Source of the DNA: Burkholderiaceae bacterium
GTDB lineage: Bacteria; Pseudomonadota; Gammaproteobacteria; Burkholderiales; Burkholderiaceae_D
Direction: 5' to 3'
DNA length: 64,000 nt
Assembly: GCA_004298905.1 (NCBI GenBank)
Contig: SCTK01000011.1
Span: 124,001-188,000, forward strand
In this document: positions 8,480-50,999 of the stretch, piece after piece
How positions within the stretch are numbered: the first letter of the stretch is position 1
Layout: every line of letters starts with the position of its first letter
Made by a program: the position numbers and the translations under genes
Notes under the pieces: generated by a model
Databases searched by the model: none
Told to the model about the DNA's origin: nothing
What the model saw: only the letters and a program-made list of their open reading frames with translations

Positions 8480-8490
8480 TTTCAAAGGCA

Positions 8491-8516
8491 TGAAAGATGA
8501 AAGATGAAAGATGAAA
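8491..8516. repeat. Heptanucleotide tandem repeat at the ntrC start
   Basis: Three perfect copies of TGAAAGA plus a partial fourth lie at the 5' end of ntrC. On the minus strand they read TCTTTCA repeated and occupy the position where a ribosome site for the ATG at 8479 or 8491 would be expected. Confidence 0.88.
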
Positions 8517-42293: not shown

Positions 42294-44201
42294 TCAGTGG
42301 CGCTGCAGGATTTCCCCGGAAAGCCGGGCCATGAAATCCGCGAGGGGCATCACACCGAGATCGACGTTACCGCGTGCACGCACGGCCACCGTTTGCGCTT
42401 GCTTTTCCTTGTCGCCCACCACCAGGATGTACGGGAACTTCTGCAAGCTGAGGTCGCGGATTTTATAGGTAATCTTGTCGTTGCGCAAATCGGACTCGGC
42501 CCTAACGCCTTGTTTTTTCAGCATTTGTGCAACGTGCTCGGCGTAGTCGGCCTGATTCTCGGAAATACAGGCCACCACCACCTGTACCGGCGCCAGCCAG
42601 GCGGGCAAGGCACCGGCGTGGTGCTCGATCAACATGCCGATAAAGCGTTCCAACGAGCCAAGCACCGCCCGATGCAACATCACCGGCACCTTGCGGCTGT
42701 TGTCTTCGGCGACGTATTCTGCGCCCAGACGCGCCGGCATGGAAAAATCGACCTGCATCGTGCCGCATTGCCAGGAGCGGCCGATCGAGTCCTTGATGTG
42801 AAATTCGATCTTCGGACCGTAAAACGCGCCCTCGCCGGGCAACTCGTCCCAATGCATGCCACTGGCACGCAGCGCCTGGCGCAGTGCTTCTTCCGATTTG
42901 TCCCACACTTCGTCGCTGCCGACGCGGTTTTGCGGACGCAGCGCCAGCTTGACGGCCACTTCCTCAAAACCAAAATCCTTGTACACCTTGAGCACCAGCG
43001 CATTAAAGGCGGTCACTTCGGACTGAATCTGTTCTTCCGCGCAAAAAATATGGCCGTCGTCCTGCACAAAACCACGCACGCGCATCAGCCCGTGCAGCGC
43101 GCCGGACGGCTCGTTGCGGTGGCAAGAACCAAACTCGCCCAGCCGGAATGGCAGGTCGCGATAGGAATGCAGCGCCGCGTTGTACACCAGAATGTGACCG
43201 GGACAGTTCATCGGCTTGACCGCGTAATCGCGCTTTTCCGATTCGGTGGTGAACATATTGTCGCGGTAGTTTTCCCAGTGGCCGGTTTTTTCCCACAGTG
43301 ATTTGTCGAGAATCTGCGGACAGCGCACTTCCCGATAGCCGTGGTCGCGATAAATCTGGCGCATGTACTGCTCCACCACCTGCCAGATCGCCCAGCCTTT
43401 CGGATGCCAGAACACCAGACCTGGCGCTTCTTCCTGCATGTGGAACAGATCGAGTTCCTTGCCCAGCCGGCGATGATCTCGCTTTTCGGCTTCTTCGAGC
43501 ATGTGCAGATAAGCGTCCTGTTCTTCCTTCTTCGCCCAAGCCGTACCATAGACACGCTGCAGCATTTCGTTTTTCGAATCGCCGCGCCAATAGGCGCCGG
43601 CCAGCTTCATCAACTTGAACACCTTCAGCTTGCCAGTCGACGGCACATGCGGCCCGCGGCACAGATCGGTGAACTTGCCTTCGGTGTACAGCGACACATC
43701 CTCACCGGCCGGAATGCTGGCGATGATTTCTGCCTTGTAATGTTCGCCGATGGATTTGAAATAGGCCACCGCCTCGTCGCGCGGCAACACCTTGCGCGTG
43801 ACCGGCTCATCCTGCTTCGCCAGCTCGACCATTTTTTTCTCGATGGCTTCCAGGTCTTCGGGCGTGAAGGGGCGCTTGTAAGAAAAATCGTAATAGAAAC
43901 CGTTGTCGATCACCGGCCCGATCGTTACCTGCGCCTCGGGAAACAATTCCTTCACCGCATAGGCCAGCAAATGCGCGGTCGAGTGGCGGATCACTTCCAG
44001 ACCGTCGGCATACTTGTCGGTGACAATAGCAAGCGTGGCGTCTTGTGTGATGAGGTACGAGGTGTCGACCAGCTTGCCATCGACCTTGCCGGCCAACGCG
44101 GCCTTGGCCAGACCGGGGCCGATGGACGCAGCGACTTGCGCCACCGTGACGGCTTGATCAAATGGACGCTCCGAACCATCGGGCAAACGAATCACCGGCA
44201 T
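42294..44201 (-). CDS. thrS: Threonyl-tRNA synthetase
   Basis: 635 residues. It has the TGS domain at the N-terminus, the editing domain with [16 protein letters not shown] (HxxxH) and a distal Cys/His pair, and the class II core with motif 2 ([35 protein letters not shown]), the zinc-site Cys in PMNCPGH, and motif 3 ([18 protein letters not shown]). The C-terminal domain binds the anticodon. The start at 44201 (MPVIRLPDG) is family-like; an upstream in-frame 19 residues run through the leader terminator. A Thr-containing leader and terminator precede it. Confidence 0.97.
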
Positions 44202-44227
44202 GCCAGCTATCTCCGCAAAAAATGGGC

Positions 44228-44255
44228 AAAAAAAAGTGCGGACTAGCCGCACTTT
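44228..44255 (-). terminator. Terminator in the thrS leader, possible attenuator
   Basis: Minus-strand AAAGTGCGG, loop CTAGT, CCGCACTTT and a run of T. It lies 27 bases before the thrS ATG and 31 after the leader peptide stop, so it must be bypassed for thrS to be transcribed. Confidence 0.85.
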
Positions 44256-44285
44256 CAAAAGAGAACCATTGGTGAAAGAACGAAC

Positions 44286-44820: not shown

Positions 44821-45228
44821 GCTGCTTTTTTATTGAAGTAAATCTTGCAATTTTATTTGCAGCTGCTAGCTTGATACCTGGTTAAAACATCGAATGCAAG
44901 TCGACCAACGTCGTATCAACAATTCATAAAAAAACCATTTCTCACAATCGCTTGCATTCGACATCACTTCTGATGGTCTAGTCATTGTTCACGCGCTTCC
45001 GGGAGGGGCACAAGAACTTTACACATGCGGCGGATCAATTTGCGCGGGCACATTCTGTGTTGATGTGTGCGACGCTATTTGTGTGCGCATTATTGAACCG
45101 TTTCAGGCAACACGAAATGTAATGTTGTTTTTACAGGGGGAAAAATTTCCATTCAATATTTTGCAGCGTGCGTTACCTTGCTCATCGACCATCTTCATCA
45201 TGATCTACTGCCTTTAAAGGAGAACCAT
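44821..45228. other. AT-rich spacer before the accessory locus
   Basis: About 400 bases, clearly richer in A+T than the flanking core genes. No gene is supported. The last 30 bases contain AAAGGAGAA, the ribosome site of the next gene. Any promoter for the accessory genes should lie here. Confidence 0.55.
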
Positions 45229-46071
45229 ATGAATACGACAGCACCCACACTCGGCGCATTCAACCAGGGGAAAACCCCCACCATTGCATGTTTCAACAAA
45301 TCGACGGTTCCGCTCGGGGTCGAGTTCGATGCCTTGATCGCAGCCATGCAGGTATTCGTGGACAAGCACGTGGCCCCGGTGTGGGGCACACCTGCCAAGC
45401 TGGTTAAATCCAAAGGGTATGTGAAAGGCGCATGGGCGATGATCTTTCTCGACAACGCCGATCAGCCAGGTGCGCTTGCCTACCATGATCTAACGCCTGA
45501 AGGCATGCCGCAGTCGAAGGTTTTCGTCAAAACCACGCTCGACAACCACGACCTGGTCAGTGTGTCGGCCTCGCATGAGTTGGTCGAAATGCTGGTCGAT
45601 CCGGCCATCAACATGATGACCACGGGTCCCGATCCGAAACTGGTCTACGCTTATGAAAGCGCGGATCCGGTCGAAGCACTCAGTTTTCCCATCGACGGCA
45701 TCGAGATGAGTGATTTTGTCTATCCCTCCTACTTCGAAGTCTTCCACAAGCCAGGCTCAGTACGTTTGGATCATCTCAACCAGGTCAAAAAACCATTTGA
45801 GCTGCTCAGTGGCGGCTACCAGATCGTCTATAAAAATGGCCGGTGGAGCCAGATCTTCGGATCCATCGCGAAGAAGAAAAGCTTCGCAATGGAAGATCGT
45901 CGAGATCACCGTAGCGAGCTGCGCCCGGTGAAACAACGCAAATGCGCTTCAGAAGCCGCAATTGCACGCGCGGAGGAGAAATCAAAACCACGACCACAGT
46001 CGCCGCAACGTGTTCTTGAAATACCCGGACGTTTACAAGAAAGGACGATGTCTGAATCAGCCACAGCGTAA
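45229..46071 (+). CDS. Protein of unknown function with HELVE motif, possible zincin-like fold
   Basis: 280 residues; AAAGGAGAA lies six bases before the ATG. I do not recognise a named family. The central part reads VSASHELVEMLVDP, then YESADPVEA and MSDFVYPSYF. HExxE followed by an acidic residue resembles a metal site of gluzincin/zincin type, with the Glu of YESADPVE as a further ligand candidate, but there is no HExxH. The N-terminal 100 residues include a beta-rich segment (GAWAMIFLDNADQPGALAYHDL). The last 70 residues are Lys/Arg-rich and disordered-looking. No signal peptide is seen. First of three same-strand genes leading to the Cys/Trp-rich kelch protein. Confidence 0.75.
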   Translation: MNTTAPTLGAFNQGKTPTIACFNKSTVPLGVEFDALIAAMQVFVDKHVAPVWGTPAKLVKSKGYVKGAWAMIFLDNADQPGALAYHDLTPEGMPQSKVFVKTTLDNHDLVSVSASHELVEMLVDPAINMMTTGPDPKLVYAYESADPVEALSFPIDGIEMSDFVYPSYFEVFHKPGSVRLDHLNQVKKPFELLSGGYQIVYKNGRWSQIFGSIAKKKSFAMEDRRDHRSELRPVKQRKCASEAAIARAEEKSKPRPQSPQRVLEIPGRLQERTMSESATA

Positions 46072-46474
46072 CGTCGCGCCTGACATTTTGGCGATCGACA
46101 ACCTCGAACAACTGCGCGCGTGGGCCGGTGCGAAATGGTATTCGAAGCGGCCCATCGCGCTGCGCCTGCCGGAGCTGACGGAGGCAGACGCATTTGCCAT
46201 CAGCGAGCGCCTCAATCGGCAGCGCAGCGATTGCGGTTGTTCGCTGGGTGCAAAAGGGATGGTGTGCGCATTTGTTGTCACGGCAGCCGGCTTGATCACG
46301 CATTACGGGTTTTTTACTACGGCGTTGTTGTGGCGGCTGCCGATCCTGCTGGCAGCCACCTTGTTTTTTGCCGGCCTTGGCAAGGCGCTTGGAATCGCCG
46401 CAGCTCGCCGACGGCTACAGATGGAGATTGATATTCTTTTTGATTGTCTGACCAATCAAACACAGAAGGAATGA
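46010..46474 (+). CDS. Small membrane protein of unknown function, start uncertain
   Basis: The frame ends at 46474 and has no early ATG. GTG 46010 or TTG 45962 are possible starts; GTG gives about 154 residues. A soluble part (NLEQLRAWAGAKWYSKRPIALRLPELTEADAF) is followed by CGCSLGAKG and two hydrophobic segments (VCAFVVTAAGLITHYGFF and LPILLAATLFFAGLGKAL). Its 5' end overlaps the previous gene. An ATG at 46048 with AAAGGA close before it lies in the other frame (MSESATA, then stop), so a one-base slip near 46065-46071 may separate the true start from the body. It ends three bases before the kelch gene. Confidence 0.55.
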   Translation: MFLKYPDVYKKGRCLNQPQRNVAPDILAIDNLEQLRAWAGAKWYSKRPIALRLPELTEADAFAISERLNRQRSDCGCSLGAKGMVCAFVVTAAGLITHYGFFTTALLWRLPILLAATLFFAGLGKALGIAAARRRLQMEIDILFDCLTNQTQKE

Positions 46475-46477
46475 GCT

Positions 46478-48367
46478 ATGGCTGGATCGTGGAGTAATGT
46501 GGTCTCGATCTGCGGATCGCGGCGCACGGTGGCATTTACCCGATGCACCACGTGGGCCGACGAGGGTTCAGCGCATTGCTCGCAATGGGCCGATGAAGGT
46601 TCAAACCAATGCTCGCAATGGGCCGACCACGGTCACAACGAATGCAACCAATGGGCCGATGAAGGAACCAGTGAATGCAACGCGTGGGCCGATCACGGTC
46701 ACAACGAATGTTGCGACTGGTGGCCGTGCTCCTGGCTTTGCGATGCTTTTTACTGGATCGCCAACTGGGTTTGCGTCGGCTGGTATTGGGTCGCCAAGTG
46801 GGTGTGTCACGCATGGTATTGGGTCGCGAACTGGGTGTGCCAAGCTTGGTATTGGGTGGCCAAGTGGGTCTGCCTAGCATGGTTCTGGATTGCCAAATGG
46901 ATTTGCCTGGCGTGGGAGTGGATCTTCTTTCTTTTCTGTACCGGCGGCAACGGTGGCCCACTATTTTTGCTGACCGACGGTACCGTGCTGATGAATGAAT
47001 GCGCCAGCGGCTTCGGTACCCGGCGCTGGTGGAAACTGACGCCCGATGCCACCGGTAGCTACGTCAACGGTTTGTGGACGCGCATCGCCGATAGCATCAC
47101 TGGCCGAAAATATTTTGCTGCGGCAGTACTGGCCGATGGCCGGTTGCTGATCTGCGGCGGCGAATACAGCGACGCTTCCGGCAGCAATACACAGGACGAC
47201 ACCGCCAACAGCGAAATCTACAATCCAGTGACGGATACCTGGACCAGTATCTCGCCGCCCACCGGTATCACACAAATCGGCGATTCGGTATGTTGCCTGC
47301 TGCCTGACGGACGTTTTCTGCTCGGCAGTTTCAACAGCACTACCGTTTCCATCTTCAATCCCGCGACCAGTACCTGGACTGCCGCGGCCTCCAAAGGCGA
47401 CAGCGGTTCGGAAGAATCGTGGGTGCTGATGGCCGACGGCACTATCATCGCGCCACAATGCAACAGCGCCCCCAATGCGGAAAAATACGTGATCAGCAGC
47501 GACAGCTGGGTATCGGCCGGTGCATTGGTCAATAATATCGTCGAGACCGCTTCGCTGGAGATCGGTCCCGGTATTCTGCTCACCGACAAACGCGCCTTTT
47601 TTGTCGGTGCCAATGGCGGCAACACCGCGCTCTATACTTCCGGCGCAACGTCGGCTGCCGCCGGCACTTGGGCCGCCGGACCGGTCATCCCGCTCAACGG
47701 CAAGCAAAATCAGGGCAGCAAGGACGGCCCAGGTGCGTTGCTGCCGAGCGGGAATGTGCTGTTCCCGGCCGCACCGGTCGATGGCAGCGTCGGCAATTAT
47801 TTATCGCCGTGTTCATTCTTCGAATTCGATGGCACCAATCTGGCGCGCGTCAATGATCCGTCGAACGCCAACTGTCCCACTTACGTCGGCCGCATGATGT
47901 TGATTCCGACCGGCCAAGTCATTTGGGCGCGCGAAGACGATAACGGCATTTTTGCCTACACCGAGAATGGGCAACCGCAGAATTCATTCCGGCCGGTCGT
48001 GACGGTCGCACCTGCGGTTCTGGTACCGGGCAGCACGGTGGCGATCTCGGGCACACAATTCAACGGGCTATCGCAAGCAGTCGGTTACGGCGACGATTAC
48101 ACCGCCGCGACCAATTATCCTCTGGTGCGCATTCGCCACAAAGCCTCCGGCCGCGTGCGCTACTGCCGCACCGCCAACCACACCACGGCTGCGGTCGGCG
48201 GCGGCACGGTGACGTCGATGGGAGTAGCAACCGGCAGTGCGGTCATTACGACGCAGGTCACGATCCCGTCCGATATCGATCACGGTGCTTCCGATTTATT
48301 CGTGGTGGCCAACGGCATTGCATCTGATGCGGTTGCCGTGAGTGTGCGCAGCGGGCGCGAGGGATAA
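46478..48367 (+). CDS. Kelch-like protein with N-terminal 11-residue Cys/Trp ladders
   Basis: 629 residues; AAGGA lies before the ATG. Residues 12-154 hold two ladders of seven Cys spaced exactly 11 apart: 12, 23, 34, 45, 56, 67, 78 and 88, 99, 110, 121, 132, 143, 154. The first block repeats the pattern C-x-x-WAD(E/H)G; the second repeats (Y/F)W(V/I)A(N/K)W(V/I)C-x-(A/G)W. About 24 Trp lie in these 143 residues. Residues 155-500 are kelch/galactose-oxidase-like blades (LADGRLLICGGEY, SEIYNPVTDTWTSI, LLPDGRFLLGSF). Residues 510-629 look like the E-set C-terminal domain of such proteins (PLVRIRHKASGRVRYCRT). No signal peptide or galactose oxidase copper site is recognised. The function is unknown. 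Confidence 0.88.
   Translation: MAGSWSNVVSICGSRRTVAFTRCTTWADEGSAHCSQWADEGSNQCSQWADHGHNECNQWADEGTSECNAWADHGHNECCDWWPCSWLCDAFYWIANWVCVGWYWVAKWVCHAWYWVANWVCQAWYWVAKWVCLAWFWIAKWICLAWEWIFFLFCTGGNGGPLFLLTDGTVLMNECASGFGTRRWWKLTPDATGSYVNGLWTRIADSITGRKYFAAAVLADGRLLICGGEYSDASGSNTQDDTANSEIYNPVTDTWTSISPPTGITQIGDSVCCLLPDGRFLLGSFNSTTVSIFNPATSTWTAAASKGDSGSEESWVLMADGTIIAPQCNSAPNAEKYVISSDSWVSAGALVNNIVETASLEIGPGILLTDKRAFFVGANGGNTALYTSGATSAAAGTWAAGPVIPLNGKQNQGSKDGPGALLPSGNVLFPAAPVDGSVGNYLSPCSFFEFDGTNLARVNDPSNANCPTYVGRMMLIPTGQVIWAREDDNGIFAYTENGQPQNSFRPVVTVAPAVLVPGSTVAISGTQFNGLSQAVGYGDDYTAATNYPLVRIRHKASGRVRYCRTANHTTAAVGGGTVTSMGVATGSAVITTQVTIPSDIDHGASDLFVVANGIASDAVAVSVRSGREG
46544..46708 (+). repeat. 33-bp in-frame repeats, block 1 (five units)
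   Basis: Five units of 33 bases encoding C-x-x-WAD(E/H)G-x-x-x (residues 23-77). Two units (WADHGHNE) are nearly identical in DNA, pointing to recent duplication. Coding repeats, not CRISPR. Confidence 0.92.
46751..46915 (+). repeat. 33-bp in-frame repeats, block 2 (five units)
   Basis: Five units of 33 bases encoding YW(V/I)A(N/K)W(V/I)C-x-(A/G)W (residues 92-146). Units 2 to 4 differ at few bases. The 14 codons between the blocks carry the transition CCDWWPCSWLCDAF. Confidence 0.92.
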
Positions 48368-48473: not shown

Positions 48474-49427
48474 TCACTTGAGCGCGTTGTTGTAACAACT
48501 CTTGAAGGCTTCCATCTTTGAATTGTCGCTGCCAATAAGGGGTTTGCATTTCTCATAGGCGGCTTTGCGCAGCATGGATTGATCGGCGCTGGCGGACTGG
48601 CGTGCAGCGCTATCGGCTTCATTTTTTGCCATCCCCTCGCGCTGTGTTTGGTCGACCTTATTCCATCCCGCTTGCACATTTTCCTGAGGGGCGGCGCTGC
48701 CATCGGCACGCAGGCCCGTAACCGTCGTAAACCCTTTCGGCAAATCTTCCAGATGGTGGGTCGTGAAATTGAGAATGTTTTGAGGTCTGCCCGTCACTTT
48801 ATTCAGGCAAAGTTTGTGTCCATCCGATTCGCGCCACTGGGGTGCTTTGGATACTTGTGCCTTTTCGGCGGGTTCGAGGTAACGTCCATAGCAATCCGAA
48901 AATTCAAGTTCGCTGGCCGCGGTCACCTTGCCAGGAACACTTTCCGATGCGCCACTGTTACCCATGCGCCCCGAAACAGCGTAAGGGTTCAAACCGTGTT
49001 TTGCCACTAGATCAGCGCAGTTCAACCCCGGCAGAACATGCGCCACGTTCACTTCGATTTTGCTGTGATGTGCATCGACCGGTTGCGCCATCTGGGTAAA
49101 ACCAGTGGTGCCATCGGCGCGCTGAAATGGCCGACCAAACACGGGGGCTACGGTAATCAGTTTTCCTGTATCCGCATTCGCCAAACAGAAAGCCGGCTGA
49201 TCGCTGCGGGCGAGATTGCTGTAGATCATGGTGTAACCCAACACCTTGACGCTGCCGGACATCTGCACACCGTTGTCGACTCCGTCGGAGATACCTTTTT
49301 TTACAGCGTTGCCAAGTTTGCCAAAGAAACCGCCTTCTGCAGGTGCGGGTTCCTCAGCGCGGACTGCCGAGGCAAACATGACAGCGAAAAAAATGATTGC
49401 TGGAGCAGCGATATTGCAACGGCACAT
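48474..49427 (-). CDS. Secreted protein of unknown function
   Basis: 317 residues with a signal peptide (IIFFAVMFASAVRA, cleavage before EEPAP). The mature part starts with a helix containing GGFFGKLGNAVKKGISDGV. It has paired Cys (CLANAD, LNCADL, DCYGRY, KLCLNK, YEKCKP, SCYNNA) that could form disulfides in the periplasm. I recognise no family. It converges on the kelch gene with 106 bp between and may or may not belong to that locus. The 186 bp upstream (49428-49613) hold no gene. Confidence 0.75.
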   Translation of the reverse strand: MCRCNIAAPAIIFFAVMFASAVRAEEPAPAEGGFFGKLGNAVKKGISDGVDNGVQMSGSVKVLGYTMIYSNLARSDQPAFCLANADTGKLITVAPVFGRPFQRADGTTGFTQMAQPVDAHHSKIEVNVAHVLPGLNCADLVAKHGLNPYAVSGRMGNSGASESVPGKVTAASELEFSDCYGRYLEPAEKAQVSKAPQWRESDGHKLCLNKVTGRPQNILNFTTHHLEDLPKGFTTVTGLRADGSAAPQENVQAGWNKVDQTQREGMAKNEADSAARQSASADQSMLRKAAYEKCKPLIGSDNSKMEAFKSCYNNALK

Positions 49428-49613: not shown

Positions 49614-50999
49614 CTACAGCCAGCGTCGCAGGCGTGTAAGCACGGTATCGCGGCCCAATAGTTCGAGTACCGCATCGACCGAGGGCGTTTGCAGGCGGCC
49701 CGTCACCAGCAAACGCAAAGGCATAGCGAGCTTGGGCATTTTAAGGTTGTGCTGGGTCAGGCTGTGTTTGAGTTGCGCGCCGATAGTTTCGCGCTGCCAT
49801 TCGATGCCGGCGCAGGCCTCAGCAAATTCAGCCAGCGCGGGTTTGATTTCTGCGGTGAAATGCTGTTCCAGCAACCCCGCATCCGGTTCGATCCACTGAT
49901 AAAACAGCAGTGCGCTCTGTGCCAGTTCGTTGAGTGTGTTGGCGCGATCCTTGAACAGGGCGATGACGGCTTGCAGGTCCGCGCCCGCAACCTGAACGCC
50001 GAGCGCTTCGATGCGTGGTTGCACCAGCGCGGCCAGGCGCGCGTTGTCGGCTTGCTTGATGTAGTGGTTGTTGAGCCAGGCCAGCTTTTCCGGATTGAAT
50101 TGCGCCGGAGCGCTGCTCAGGTTGCTGCCGTCGAACCATTGCACGAACTGTTCACGCGAAAACACTTCGTCGTCACCGTGGCCCCAGCCGAGGCGCGCCA
50201 GATAATTATTGAGTGCTTCAGGCAGGTAGCCGTCGTCGTCATATTGCGTCACCGAAACCGCGCCGTGACGCTTGGAAAGTTTCTGGCCGTCGGCGCCATG
50301 GATCATCGGCACATGGCCATACACCGGTAATTCAGCACCCAGCGCGCGCAGAATGTTGATCTGTCGCGGCGTATTGTTGACGTGATCGTCGCCGCGAATC
50401 ACATGCGTGATGCGCATATCCAGATCGTCCACGACGACACAGAAATTGTAGGTCGGCGTGCCGTCGCCGCGCGCGATGATCAAATCGTCCAATTCAGCAT
50501 TGGCGATGCGGATCGTACCCTTGACCAGATCGTTCCATTCAACCTCGCCATCTGGCGGATTACAAAAACGCACCACGGGTTTGATGTCCGCCGGAATCTC
50601 TGGCAACGTCTTTCCCGCTGCGGGTCGCCAGCGGCCGTCGTAACGGGGCTTGTCGCCACGCGCACGCTGCGCCTCACGCATGGCTTCCAGTTCTTCCGGT
50701 GAGCAATAACAGTGATACGCCTTGCCCTCGGTCAGCAATTGCGCAATCACTGCGCGGTAACGCTCCATGCGCTGCATCTGGTAGAACGGGCCTTCGTCCC
50801 AGTTCAGATCGAGCCAACGCATGCCGTCGAGAATCGCCTGCACCGCTTCCGGCGTGGAACGCTCGACATCGGTATCTTCAATGCGCAAAATAAATTCGCC
50901 TTGATGATGGCGCGCATAGGCCCAGGAAAACAAAGCCGTGCGTGCACCGCCGACATGCAGAAAACCGGTGGGGCTGGGAGCAAAACGAGTACGAACCAT
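49614..50999 (-). CDS. gltX: Glutamyl-tRNA synthetase
   Basis: 461 residues, class [20 protein letters not shown] contains the HIGH-equivalent motif and [14 protein letters not shown] is the KMSKS equivalent. [12 protein letters not shown] and the MIHGADG loop fit discriminating or general GluRS rather than GlnRS. It attaches Glu to tRNA-Glu. The C-terminal anticodon-binding domain is full length. Confidence 0.97.

Follow-up and report, generated by a model that had tools for sequence, protein, structure and literature searches.

A bacterial protein module for which no description was found in Pfam, NCBIfam, PADLOC or the literature searched precedes the kelch part of a protein encoded in the window, the 64,000-nucleotide stretch of Burkholderiaceae DNA analysed here. 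The module, referred to as the stalk, carries Cys residues in a palindromic order shared by homologues, and its gene usually lies beside that of a small membrane protein, the partner. On balance, it appears best explained as a disulfide-stapled stalk that, together with the partner, would dock enzymes at the membrane outside the cytoplasm. The 20 stalk homologues come from six phyla, and their association with unrelated enzymes, a near-constant partner and the lack of a signal peptide raises the question of how signal-less enzymes are placed at the cell envelope. The confidence attached to the successive steps of the explanation (hairpin, pairing, disulfide, compartment and docking) reflects judgement and not computed values.

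The stalk-kelch gene and its Cys and Trp ladders

The stalk-kelch gene (46478..48367, forward strand) encodes a protein of 629 aa without a signal peptide, and is preceded by a ribosome-binding site, AAGGA, at 46466-46470. The original prediction, made from the window alone, described two seven-Cys ladders of exact 11-residue period, and these are real: the ORF translation has Cys at residues 12, 23, 34, 45, 56, 67 and 78 and again at 88, 99, 110, 121, 132, 143 and 154. All four Trp ladders described with them (26-81, 82-148, 86-141 and 102-146) are also found in the ORF. Two further stalk Cys, C79 and C84, were absent from the original list. When residues 1-155 were shuffled 20,000 times, the longest 11-step Cys run was 5, obtained in 6 shuffles, compared with two runs of 7 in the real sequence. 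TRF finds 33/66-bp DNA repeats beneath both halves of the stalk. Elsewhere in the window it reports 7-bp tandem repeats (GCCGACT, ATGAAAG) at 1184-1217 and 8490-8516.

Residues 1-155 of the window protein are touched by no Pfam or NCBIfam match, and the family matches of 17 stalk members are to cargo-type families only. PADLOC gave no match in 17 of 17 stalk members, and literature searches on 11-residue Cys/Trp repeats, CX10C hairpins and hendecad disulfides returned nothing describing the module.

A palindromic Cys pattern among homologues

When the 20 homologues were split at their Cys, the pattern proved to be a palindrome around a CCDWWPCSWxC tip, with the same steps running outward both ways. 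The steps are 11, 7 or 4 residues long, corresponding to three, two or one helical turns, and combine into no fewer than six patterns. Loss of the Cys period in homologues had been named in advance as evidence against a functional ladder; the period is kept, in these 11-, 7- or 4-residue steps. Together with the long helices predicted by AF2, this agrees with the original proposal that the 11-residue period is helical and functional-looking.

The steps of the N-arm and C-arm are identical in 17 of the 20 homologues. In 100,000 trials in which C-arms were permuted among the proteins, matches averaged 4.0 with a maximum of 12, and none reached 17. Arm lengths co-vary accordingly, with a correlation of 0.995 between N-arm and C-arm. 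The three proteins that are not exact mirrors are L011, in which the outermost Cys lie at 40 vs 44, L016, which has an offset of 3 along the arm, i.e. one helical turn, and L002, which has one extra unpaired Cys. The stalk Cys count is even in 19 of the 20, and the inner Cys of the tip, C79 and C84, are both present in 18 and both absent in 2. The mirror match is not due to relatedness alone, because the cargo tree requires repeated changes of arm length: in the metallopeptidase subfamily, arm length switched between 29 and 40 at least three times, both arms changing together each time, as counted on well-supported branches of a tree computed from the metallopeptidase cargo with the stalk left out.

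The simplest cause of the mirrored steps would be physical pairing of N-arm Cys with C-arm Cys, and in all likelihood the Cys are paired across the arms. The pairs are probably disulfides. Rungs 11 residues apart lie ∼16 Å apart and each offers only two thiols, and they are therefore a poor fit to four-Cys metal sites. Metal or cofactor binding and charge transfer, which had been suggested for the ladders, found no support in the analysis, whereas disulfide bundling, one of several options raised originally, gives the best fit if it is taken as intramolecular stapling.

Predicted hairpin architecture

The N-arm (residues 12-78; 46511..46711, forward strand) is made of six 11-residue steps of the form CxxWADxGxxx, with a hendecad core in which a is Cys, d Trp, e Ala and h Gly. 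Its outer face is polar and acidic in the window protein, and the non-core positions of the repeat are mainly polar. The tip, CCDWWPCSWLC (residues 78-88; 46709..46741, forward strand), holds the inner Cys pair C79/C84 and is near-invariant among homologues. The C-arm (residues 88-154; 46739..46939, forward strand) comprises six 11-residue steps of the form Cx(A/G)WxWVAxWV, and its outer face is strongly hydrophobic and Trp-rich. This two-sidedness is general: averaged over its outer face, the N-arm is polar and the C-arm hydrophobic in 20 of 20 members. On the Kyte-Doolittle scale, the C-arm of the window protein is Trp-rich and not TM-like; in metallopeptidase members the C-arm continues into a long hydrophobic stretch.

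AF2, run on the stalk alone with 15 sequences in the input, predicted helices at residues 5-78 and 86-155 joined by a 7-residue turn, with residues 79-85 non-helical. The mean pLDDT was 85.5 and the pTM 0.58, which is moderate, and the five stalk models differed, with pLDDT of 52.9-85.5. A full-length run agreed on the stalk and gave an unreliable cargo (pLDDT < 50); a full-length Foldseek search was uninformative because the cargo was modelled so poorly. With the stalk model, Foldseek found only generic long helical hairpins and no PDB match with E ≤ 0.001. Residues 1-155 very probably form a helical hairpin, and the way in which its arms would pack is suggested by the mirrored Cys pattern. 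What had been read as a ‘phase slip’ at residues 78-88 would instead be the hairpin tip, and not a slip within one helix. Similarly, in place of two separate thiol lines beside stacked indoles, the ladders are best seen as mirror-image arms of one hairpin, with the thiols facing each other as rungs.

Cargo domains and compartment

The cargo of the window protein (46940..48364, forward strand) appears to consist of a kelch-type beta-propeller and, behind it, a C-terminal beta domain. Pfam bears out the kelch assignment of the original prediction, with Kelch_1 (residues 212-261) scoring 32.6 bits, above its cut-off of 20.1, and Kelch_6 at 29.3 bits against 25.3; the kelch motifs span 212-262. 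A single motif lies above the Pfam cut-off, and a full multi-bladed propeller is putative. The cargo resembles galactose oxidase only by a weak NCBIfam match and falls outside the GlxA family (NF052501), scoring 19.4 bits against a cut-off of 800.

At most stalk loci the cargo is a reprolysin-like metallopeptidase. Kelch cargo is found in the window, L003, L004 and L040, a GDPD domain in L011 from Mycobacterium (E 1.3e-19), and a phospholipase C-type phosphoesterase in L041 (E 3.5e-62). In L005 the stalk is C-terminal, located behind an HExxH-like domain and a hydrophobic segment. Since the same stalk precedes several unrelated cargo types, it is an independent module to which kelch is incidental; the combination of Cys/Trp ladders with kelch had been pointed out as one for which no function is known to be described, but the stalk also carries metallopeptidase, GDPD and phosphoesterase domains. 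One Acidobacteriota genome, G1128, holds two stalk cassettes, L040 (kelch) and L041 (phosphoesterase), each with its own partner.

No stalk member has an obvious N-terminal signal, and several start at the stalk itself. Among kelch relatives without a stalk, the nearest one found is G010 (44% over 466 aa), whose N-terminus, MGTRRGTGAQMLVMALALVVSTAAGAQSA, is signal-peptide-like as judged by eye in this one sequence. The cargo families are mostly extracellular enzymes. From these three observations we infer that the cargo is likely to act outside the cytoplasm, which would imply a crossing of the membrane, and the N-terminal sequences suggest that the stalk stands in for a signal peptide.

The partner gene and its surroundings

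The partner gene (46088..46474, forward strand) encodes a small two-TM protein. TTG at 46088 is the best-guess start, in a frame that is open from 45962, and the stop lies 3 nt upstream of the stalk ATG. A CGC motif (46232-46240) is located at the start of TM1, and GKxxG follows TM2; both Cys of CGC are invariant in the 14 aligned partner members. The gene was missed by the original prediction, which on the whole is partly supported: its observation is confirmed and parts of its interpretation are not.

Linkage of the two genes is nearly constant. In 18 of the 20 loci the partner lies next to the stalk gene, at a distance of at most 100 nt in 17 of those 18. For L039-L041, detection of the stalk preceded that of the partner, which was then picked up by a model that did not include these loci. 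Of 132 Zixibacteria genomes, three have the partner, and these are exactly the three that have the stalk; across 398 Pseudomonadota genomes the partner is confined to the two known stalk genomes. The partner family is absent from L005 and L015, and both exceptions fit the partner pattern: in L005 a hydrophobic segment is fused ahead of the stalk, and in L015 the partner's place is taken by a protein of 93 aa (L015:5707-5988, forward strand) with a single TM immediately preceded by CTKC, possibly an analogous CxxC partner. In G130, a 199-aa ORF (L042:8113-8581) lies between stalk and partner, and the stalk is without the WWP tip.

Positive charges after TM2 of the partner suggest that both its termini are in the cytoplasm (N-in/C-in), a topology in which the CGC would be on the opposite side from that where periplasmic disulfides are made. 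Beyond marginal matches, no Pfam family was found for the partner; 4 of 14 members match PF07332 weakly, with a best E of 0.0043.

Upstream of the partner, an ORF at 45178-46071 (forward strand, likely start 45229) has a HELVE motif resembling a peptidase zinc site and no Pfam match. Its candidacy as a third member of the cassette was dropped, as no other stalk locus has a relative of it. Convergent with the stalk gene, 48474-49427 (reverse strand) encodes a protein of 317 aa that begins with a signal-peptide-like sequence and matches no Pfam family. Threonyl-tRNA and glutamyl-tRNA synthetase look-alikes (42294-44258 and 49614-50999, both on the reverse strand) flank the cassette, which thus sits among housekeeping genes.

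Distribution of the module

A scan of 84,980 species genomes yielded 15 stalk loci, from Pseudomonadota, Acidobacteriota (Holophagaceae), Candidatus Zixiibacteriota, Armatimonadota, Mycobacterium and a Bacteroidota MAG, the last on an 8.8-kb contig whose phylum assignment may be wrong. Culturable carriers include the Rhizobium or Rhodobacterales strains of L007, L012 and L013. The genome of the window (2.48 Mb, 26 contigs) has a single stalk copy, and the only other carrier among 148 genomes, comprising this genome and its relatives, is G130 (L002). Samples searched with a stalk profile gave 1/248, 3/132, 2/247, 1/43, 1/249 and 1/246 carrier genomes by group, where one carrier in every count is the already known one on which the sample was centred; the two samples with new carriers gave three added loci, L039, L040 and L041. 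Because the module is rare and scattered, its distribution suggests horizontal spread. Plasmid and phage collections searched with the window stalk, and plasmids searched with the L007 protein, gave no match, and IMG/VR searched with the stalk alignment gave no relative, hence there is no sign of carriage by phages or plasmids.

Proposed mechanism and alternatives

Residues 1-155 would constitute a self-contained N-terminal module that folds into a long antiparallel hairpin, with Cys of the N-arm facing Cys of the C-arm. The predicted rungs are 12-154, 23-143, 34-132, 45-121, 56-110, 67-99 and 78-88, with 79-84 at the tip; apart from this tip pair, the residue numbers of each predicted rung sum to 166. 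As disulfides, the rungs would produce a rigid, stapled stalk, which would replace the signal peptide ahead of enzymes acting outside the cytoplasm. The hydrophobic, Trp-rich face of the C-arm may dock on the membrane and/or on the two-TM CGC partner, with the polar N-arm towards water, and the cargo, here the kelch propeller, would be presented at a set distance from it. We lean slightly towards docking that involves the partner.

The alternative that survives best, although rather unlikely, is a cytoplasmic hairpin with reduced thiols, tethered to the inner membrane by the partner and serving as a thiol sensor or a two-coordinate, Cu(I)-like metal binder. The lack of a signal peptide on the stalk would follow naturally, the partner is predicted to be N-in/C-in with CGC at the cytoplasmic edge, and the two thiols that would face each other in every rung are suited to a metal with linear dithiolate coordination. 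However, the cargo families are mostly extracellular and the N-terminus of G010 is signal-peptide-like, the cargo enzymes have no metal theme in common, and the repeat is without further conserved metal ligands.

Less probable still is an oxidation-coupled form of stapling and docking, in which stalk and partner would be a two-gene docking/export system working like the mitochondrial Mia40 pathway. By this analogy, the Cys/Trp hairpin of a signal-less protein would be captured at the membrane through the CxC protein, and its rungs would be zipped into disulfides, trapping and anchoring the cargo on the far side.

Several hairpins might also assemble as an alpha-helical barrel or channel, the hydrophobic C-arms turned to lipid or core, the N-arms lining water, and the cargo passing through or capping it. 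Such an assembly would account for the clean two-sidedness in 20 of 20 members, and some low-significance Foldseek neighbours of the stalk are alpha-pore proteins. The Foldseek E-values exceed 1, however, and arms varying from 29 to 66 residues (∼43-100 Å) are hard to accommodate in a membrane-spanning wall, so that we consider a barrel or channel distinctly improbable.

The original view, that separate Cys and Trp lines run along one continuous helix for metal or cofactor binding or charge transfer, agrees with the exact periodicity, but AF2 breaks the helix at the WWP tip, separate ladders leave the mirror constraint between the arms unexplained, and the cargo is not redox-specific, which makes this view very improbable. 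Neutral expansion of a 33-bp DNA repeat without structural role, as the tandem DNA repeats under both arms might indicate, can practically be dismissed in view of the protein-level conservation across phyla, the conserved partner gene and the matched independent expansions it would demand in two arms of unlike sequence.

If the stapled, membrane-docked stalk is correct, Cys spacing would give the rung positions, and the whole staple map would be predictable from sequence. The stalk would then also provide a stapled helical rod with about 4 to 8 rungs that is encoded genetically and can be tuned in length, and the module may represent a new way of building and anchoring enzymes at the cell surface.

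Comparison with known systems

Hendecad coiled coils and long hairpins, such as chemoreceptor tips, HlyD and the colicin E3 receptor-binding hairpin, resemble the predicted form of the stalk in their two-helix antiparallel arrangement and 11-residue core, and the PDB entries ranked by Foldseek for the stalk model are of this type. Unlike the stalk, they are without Cys rungs and without a Trp-rich hydrophobic outer face. Kelch and galactose-oxidase-like propellers and the radical copper oxidase GlxA are akin to the window cargo by the Kelch_1 match and by the weak GlxA match; in the window protein, a signal peptide is replaced by the stalk. Actinobacterial Holin-X, holin superfamily III (PF07332), is small and two-TM like the partner; the partner differs in its specific CGC and GKxxG motifs, the lack of a lysis context and a marginal score.

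Twin CX9C (CHCH) proteins and their Mia40/CHCHD4 relay offer a further comparison, the former being signal-less and forming an antiparallel helical hairpin held by Cys pairs (PMC12114033, PMC4951193). No homology was found between the stalk or partner and twin CX9C proteins or Mia40. The stalk falls outside the CX9C class, as its steps are CX10C, CX6C or CX3C only; it is bacterial, is predicted to have 4 to 8 rungs where the CX9C proteins have 2, and is an N-terminal module on large enzymes. In contrast to Mia40, the partner is a tiny two-TM protein with no Mia40 fold match, and its CGC is predicted on the cytoplasmic side. The likeness to the relay extends to a membrane-linked CxC partner, with CPC in Mia40 and CGC here, and by analogy this relay, together with the CX9C hairpins, may be regarded as the nearest functional counterpart of the stalk and its partner.
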